From Gammaproteobacteria bacterium (GTDB lineage Bacteria; Pseudomonadota; Gammaproteobacteria; Pseudomonadales; Azotimanducaceae), in assembly GCA_027292925.1 (NCBI GenBank), contig JAPUGI010000236.1, forward strand, positions 1 to 34,949: a stretch of 34,949 nucleotides of DNA. The letters run 5' to 3'. Positions 19,688-20,614 of the stretch are shown here, piece by piece (position 1 is the first letter of the stretch; every line of letters begins with the position of its first letter). The notes beneath the pieces were generated by a model. The model ran no database searches, was not told where the DNA came from, and saw nothing but the letters and a program-made list of their open reading frames with translations. A program made the translations under genes and the position numbers.

Positions 19688-20614
19688 TTACTCGGTGGCA
19701 AACCCTTGTTCTATCCACGCATCAATGCCACCTATCATGGGGTAAACCTTGGGAATCCCGTATCGTTTGAGCTTAATTGCCACACGGGCACTGGATGCTT
19801 CATCGGGTCAGTTGCAATAAACGATAATATCGCTGTCCTTGGGGATGCGCGGCAGGTGGCGTTCGATTGCTTCCATGGGCACACGCACTGCGGTCGGTAC
19901 CATGTGTGGCTGAGCATCAAAGTCATATTTATGACGCAGATCAATCACGTGCACGTCTTTAGACGAATTCAGAAGCTCATTGACGGCCGAAGGTTCGAGC
20001 CGACGCATGCGCAGGGAACGTAAAAACAGGCGCCGCTGCGTGAATTTTCCGCCGATATACAGCACTAGCGCACCAAAAAGAATGTAGCCCGCCATGACAC
20101 CGAGTTCAGCAAATCTTCCAGCCATGTACTCCAATTGAGTATGGAACCAAAACCCTGTGCCAACGAATACCAAAGCCCAGATCAACGCACCGAGGGTATC
20201 CAGAAACAGAAACAAGCCGACATTCATGTTTGTCATTCCCGCCATGGGAGGCGCGAGGGTTTGCATACCCGGAACAAACTTGGCGATCAACAATGAAAAC
20301 CTGCCTACCCTGTCAAAGGTATGTTCGGTATTGCGAACACAATAGTCTGGTTCTAGTGAAATGCTGCACAATAGGTTGAGTACTTTGCCACCACGAGCCC
20401 GACCCAGCCAGTACCAGAAAAAGTCAATGGGCACAGCAGCGATAATGATGATCAAAATGATCAGGACTAAGGACAGCTCGCCGGTACCTGCGAGTGTCCC
20501 TGCGGCCAACAAGAGGGGTACAGCCGGGAGTGGTAAACCAGCCTGATCAAGCGCTACCCAGACGAAGATAACCAGATACCCGTATTCAATCAGAAATTGC
20601 ATTAATTCCGCCAT
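19688..20614 (-). CDS. DedA-family membrane protein fused to a rhodanese domain, interrupted by in-frame TGA at 19808-19810 (selenocysteine candidate or nonsense mutation)
   Basis: DedA: VPLLLAAGTLAGTGELSL..IPIDFFWYWLGRARGG, FSLLIAKFVPGMQTLAPPMAGM. Rhodanese: HVIDLRHKYDFDAQPHMVPTAVRVPMEAIERHLPRIPKDSDIIVYCN-[TGA]-PDEASSARVAIKLKRYGIPKVYPMIGGIDAWIEQGFATE*. ORF track stops at the TGA (19808..20614). Confidence 0.85.

Follow-up and report, generated by a model that had tools for sequence, protein, structure and literature searches.

DedA-rhodanese fusions (COG0586) are known and have stayed unexplained (PMC10127716), and P. aeruginosa PA1209 is a DedA-rhodanese fusion with Cys (PMC12893004). Rhodanese domains also occur among selenoproteins, for which the 2026 review of prokaryotic selenoproteins distinguishes five rhodanese forms, in a text that contains neither DedA nor VTT (PMC13188914). 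The rhodanese-related (seleno)protein NF041203, with a CxU motif, is its "rhodanese-like form 3", and TsoB (NF045694) is a rhodanese/DsbD fusion-like selenoprotein (PMC13188914). A full-text search of the open-licence literature returned no description of a DedA selenoprotein.

We analysed a stretch of DNA of 34,949 nucleotides (the window), in which the TGA at codon 269 of one minus-strand gene very probably specifies selenocysteine (Sec), so that the product would be a full-length membrane selenoprotein. The predicted product has a polytopic DedA/VTT membrane domain and then a rhodanese domain, with a putative catalytic Sec269 and with Cys267 two residues before it. The features are as follows (window coordinates).

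20614-19688, minus strand: full candidate selenoprotein gene, DedA/VTT-rhodanese fusion, 308 residues, Sec at 269 (from the frame and homologs)
20153-20530, minus strand: DedA/VTT domain PF09335, residues 29-154 (Pfam)
20366-20368, minus strand: Cys83 codon of the DedA part; this Cys is invariant among the fusions and occurs in none of 23 stand-alone DedA proteins
20339-20341, minus strand: Cys92 codon, within the SLEPDYC motif; likewise invariant among the fusions and not present in stand-alone DedA proteins
19709-19987, minus strand: rhodanese domain PF00581, residues 210-302 (Pfam, predicted structure, solved rhodaneses)
19814-19816, minus strand: Cys267 codon, giving the Cys of CxU, which all 31 of 31 aligned family members have
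19808-19810, minus strand: in-frame TGA, codon 269, probably read as selenocysteine; TGC in Cys homologs
19775-19793, minus strand: predicted bacterial SECIS hairpin within the coding sequence, 21 nt past the UGA, with the loop CGUGU (orthologs and published model)
19691-19807, minus strand: 39 codons past the TGA that finish the rhodanese domain (GGxxAW end), absent from gene calls

The frame starts with ATG at 20614 and meets its first in-frame stop at the TGA, after which PDEASSARVAIKLKRYGIPKVYPMIGGIDAWIEQGFATE continues for 39 codons and ends at TAA 19688-19690, just as the initial annotation had read it. It had also stated that readthrough finishes the rhodanese domain and shortens the gap to the next gene from 212 to 92 bp; the arithmetic is correct, and the Pfam match to PF00581 turned out to be complete only with the TGA read through. 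In 6 of 28 other window genes (one gene, in which the next gene continues the same frame, was excluded) the frame also stays open for 39 codons or more past the stop, so open-frame length alone is weak evidence and the case rests on homology.

For the relatives, we ran a six-frame search in 201 genomes, the window's own among them, that belong to its taxonomic family. It turned out that all genes spanning the codon (36 of 36), the homologs among them being 38-81% identical to the window protein, contain an in-frame TGA, 35 of them exactly one and one of them two, and that the three matches without TGA are fragments stopping short of the codon. The TGA stands in the same C[SNT]-TGA-P[DNS]E context in 26 distinct loci read directly. 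In nine loci from the 201-genome search, also read directly, the TGA likewise falls between [YC]C[SNT] and P[DNS]E; in the other matches of that search the count refers to the presence of an in-frame TGA and gives no position. Family genes in contigs were picked up with an alignment query, while a single-protein query gave none. Homologs with Cys were found at 53-68% identity (P0008, P0013 and others) and, more distantly, at 32-40% identity (L023-L026, L075, L076). The codon is TGC in every Cys homolog whose DNA was read, and the YCxCPxEAxSA loop that the initial annotation had ascribed to DedA-rhodanese homologs is real in those with Cys.

Among the best 120 protein-database matches, about 109 end at the residue just before the TGA, another 10 have Cys and run to full length, and one Cys form has an end that is disrupted, which indicates that the family is routinely truncated in annotation. 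In 24 gammaproteobacterial TGA genes, pN/pS is 0.27 over the 37 gap-free codons after the TGA and 0.34 over 38 codons before it. The gap-free alignment and the low value after the TGA argue that this part is translated.

The source genome (G000) is a draft of 3.5 Mb in 401 contigs and is 89% complete. All four genes selA, selB, selC and selD, for which a search had been proposed, are present. The tRNA-Sec scored 68.4 bits, over the cut-off, and was called tRNA-SeC with anticodon tca by ARAGORN; SelB (440 bits) and SelA (593 bits) adjoin on contig 121, and SelD (283 bits) shares a contig with the tRNA-Sec. A second selenoprotein gene, SelW-like, encodes 73 residues with YCSQU (CxxU) at an in-frame TGA. 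As it belongs to a known selenoprotein family, UGA appears to be used as Sec elsewhere in this genome.

Contig 191:3998-4204 of the source genome (L084:1498-1719): SelW-like gene, MKIEIHYCSQU..., in-frame TGA

A search of the source genome for formate dehydrogenase N, as another possible Sec user, gave weak fragments only. SelA has a match in 32 of the 36 genomes of the taxonomic family that bear the DedA-rhodanese TGA gene and none in the other 4 of 36, where the incompleteness of draft genomes may play a part. Co-occurrence of the gene and SelA within the family is uninformative, because SelA is present in 174 of its 201 genomes. Two further observations concern this machinery. The SelD match lies within an open frame of 738 residues (contig 10:3185-4078, L018), far longer than SelD alone, and this frame is probably a fused SelD. 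A genome of the same genus (G466) carries two complete selA-like genes, on contigs 11 and 49.

The in-frame UGA would be decoded as selenocysteine by SelB, Sec-tRNA(Sec) and a hairpin just downstream. In the family, this hairpin has a 7-bp stem, formed by positions 18-24 with 30-36 from the UGA, and a 5-nt loop that is CGUGU in most members. The loop-closing pair is C-G in 20 orthologs, U-A in four and A-U in one, with zero breaks. Two-sided changes were counted in 13 cells of the covariation test on the orthologs, a number reached by 0 of 500 shuffles, and the covariation score tops all 500 shuffles and all versions with a slid partner, sliding being enough to destroy the pattern. Synonymous change is depressed in the hairpin codons (pS 0.55, against 0.77 after the hairpin), and no such hairpin is present in those Cys genes for which DNA was read. 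The SECIS model published for bacteria asks for a loop of 3-9 nt, a stem of 4-16 bp, a G in the first two loop positions, a distance of 16-37 nt from the UGA and a minimum free energy of at most -7.5 kcal/mol (PMC13188914). The family fits this geometry, and in most relatives a 51-nt stretch folds stably enough for the energy limit. The window's own hairpin, with four continuous base pairs followed by a G.A mismatch and an A-U pair, is the weakest copy of the ortholog set: it fits the geometry minimally (CGUGU, spacing 21, 4-bp core) and has -4.2 kcal/mol when isolated and -6.3 for a 40-nt stretch, compared with the model limit of -7.5. The minimum-energy fold of that 40-nt stretch is a different structure (z = -0.08). 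Because single-hairpin energy z-scores are weak and alone give no proof of a SECIS, we relied on compensatory change across orthologs.

Other readings of the TGA have to be weighed against this evidence. TGA is a single base away from TGC or TGT, and there are homologs with Cys, which speaks for a nonsense mutation or a sequencing error in an ordinary Cys-type gene, the alternative named in the initial annotation; the wide conservation of the TGA, in dozens of independently assembled relatives and down to about 40% identity, refutes it, and with the downstream frame conserved and the Sec machinery present its probability is negligible. It is very improbable that the TGA is a true stop, with a 268-residue product, a truncated rhodanese domain and a vestigial downstream frame. 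Gene callers end there, as do most of the database proteins mentioned above, but the 38 downstream codons show no gaps and evolve under purifying selection, their pN/pS not exceeding the upstream value, the hairpin is conserved after the TGA, and in the predicted structure the truncated form would keep little of the active-site loop and would lack both the helix after it and the domain's last strand. We give as little credit to a decoding of the TGA as some amino acid other than Sec, such as Trp or Cys, whether the code is a variant one or a near-cognate suppressor tRNA is at work: any UGA-decoding tRNA would make the full-length protein, but UGA ends 6 of the 28 clear genes in the window and several orthologs of the same gene, the homologs have Cys and not Trp, and the genome holds all parts of the Sec system as well as another Sec gene, from a known family. 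The idea that the TGA encodes selenocysteine, put forward from the letters of the window, is strongly supported by the machinery, the conserved TGA, the constraint on a downstream frame that shows no decay, the hairpin and the Cys homologs.

A further alternative accepts the selenoprotein and assigns the nucleophile to Cys267, with Sec as the resolving partner. The CxU motif of the window protein (C267-N-U269) lies in the rhodanese active-site loop, and the AlphaFold2 model (pLDDT 86.8), whose rhodanese domain matches solved rhodaneses, has a strand at 262-266, then Cys267-Asn-Sec269 and a helix from 270. Cys267, directly after the strand, thus occupies the classical rhodanese Cys site; it is also invariant, and anchoring on the preceding strand makes it the catalytic residue. 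The spacing to the following helix and the GG motif favours residue 269 instead, as do two profile alignments, in which it pairs with the catalytic Cys of E. coli GlpE (VMC-YHGNSS) and, by HMM, with that of 6mxv. The initial annotation had counted 27 residues from SS to AW, which equals GlpE, and had put the TGA at the offset of the GlpE catalytic Cys, with which the profile alignment agrees; on its question of which residue is catalytic, the two alignments tip the balance toward the TGA position, while the strand-end argument for Cys267 remains. In selenoenzymes the attacking residue is usually Sec. Taken together, the comparison leans toward residue 269 rather than Cys267 as the catalytic one, and a catalytic Cys267 is unlikely, though far from negligible. 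Fold and catalytic position assign the window protein to the rhodaneses, its thiosulfate or mercaptopyruvate sulfurtransferase activity being putative.

The DedA part has features of its own. Cys83 and Cys92, in a C-x2-S-x-x-PD-x-C motif, are present in all 31 aligned fusions and in none of 23 stand-alone DedA proteins, and 235 of 240 database members have the motif; four of the five exceptions are one-letter variants keeping both Cys. The flippase YghB has four essential residues, the acidic pair Glu39 and Asp51 and the basic pair Arg130 and Arg136, at the re-entrant tips (PMC10127716). Compared with the DedA flippases (E. coli YghB and YqjA, and UptA), the VTT fold is common and the key residues are partly conserved. 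In the window protein Glu39 and Arg130 are replaced conservatively by Asp23 and Lys112, whereas Asp51 and Arg136 have no equivalents (Val32 and Gln118) and are lost across the fusion family, Arg at position 118 being found in 0 of 31 members. The window protein scores far below the cut-off against the UptA models. With two essential YghB residues replaced and two lost, the fusion family is probably not a canonical undecaprenyl-phosphate flippase.

The gene neighbourhood gave no functional clue, as any given neighbour is shared by at most 6 of 28 loci, and those are mostly close relatives. Elsewhere in the window, two globin-like genes adjoin each other on the minus strand (809-1210 and 1303-1686), of which the latter has a Pfam match to bacterial truncated globin and the former resembles it by eye. 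The gene at 14758-15504 (minus strand) weakly matches the cytochrome c subunit of the photosynthetic reaction centre and adjoins an apparent TonB-type receptor gene. The 28 clear genes of the window end with TAG (16), TAA (6) or TGA (6), and such a preference for TAG is unusual for a bacterium of 50% G+C.

Trees of 31 and of 51 family members show exchange between Sec and Cys. In both, two Cys lineages nest inside the gammaproteobacterial Sec clade, namely P0008 and the group of P0013, P0014, P0016, P0020, P0024 and P0043. A second Sec clade is formed by genes from UBP9-type MAGs (L073:3001-3924 and L074), with the truncated relatives P0122-P0133; these genes are about 40% identical and have the TGA at the same codon, and their hairpin has a stem identical to those of L072 and of the strong-hairpin ortholog L069. 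In the best tree this clade groups with Nitrospira-type Cys homologs (90/80), and the unconstrained tree separates the two Sec clades; a single Sec origin for both is not rejected (p-AU 0.24). The trees show two apparent Sec-to-Cys reversions and one or two apparent Cys-to-Sec gains, and the UBP9-type gene is possibly an independent Sec gain or an old transfer. These repeated exchanges amount to a natural experiment in which Sec and Cys can be compared within a single membrane protein.

As for function, the segments on either side of the last membrane helix are positively charged, which suggests that the rhodanese domain is on the cytoplasmic side. There, Sec269 would act as the nucleophile, accepting or reducing sulfane sulfur or some other substrate that reacts with thiols, and Cys267 would resolve it as a selenenylsulfide. 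Such an enzymatic role, redox or persulfide, is a tentative reading with a chance not far short of even. From their conservation, the fusion-specific pair Cys83/Cys92 may relay electrons or sulfur between the domains. A whole selenium-dependent membrane redox or sulfur-relay system, in which Sec269 exchanges sulfur, selenium or electrons with Cys83/Cys92 and the DedA part, with half of its flippase residues gone, acts on a different thiol-linked substrate, is a speculative and rather improbable extension; if true, it would give the DedA superfamily a biochemical function new to it.

Compared with known systems, the Cys-type DedA-rhodanese fusions have the same domain order as the window protein, and the Nitrospira and gammaproteobacterial Cys homologs found here share the Cys83/Cys92 motif and a CxCP loop at the same place; they differ in that Cys (TGC) replaces Sec and that no hairpin follows there. 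TsoB is similar as a rhodanese selenoprotein joined to a membrane redox domain, but its membrane partner is another one and its Sec motif is UxxxxU, and the window protein has no match to NF045694 at E 0.001. The best NCBIfam match of the rhodanese part (residues 203-308) is NF041203, with 72.7 bits, which is below the cut-off of 115. It shares the rhodanese fold and a Sec two residues after a conserved Cys, whereas it is a single domain of 126 positions, to which the window protein adds the N-terminal DedA membrane domain. Gene calls seen here truncate the DedA-rhodanese selenoprotein family, which has no curated family of its own; it ties selenium to the DedA membrane family and offers Sec269, Cys267, Cys83 and Cys92 as residues for study. 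The window protein is very probably a real selenoprotein of a known sort with a new architecture, and it adds a selenoprotein family of new domain architecture that is widespread in marine gammaproteobacteria and also present in UBP9.
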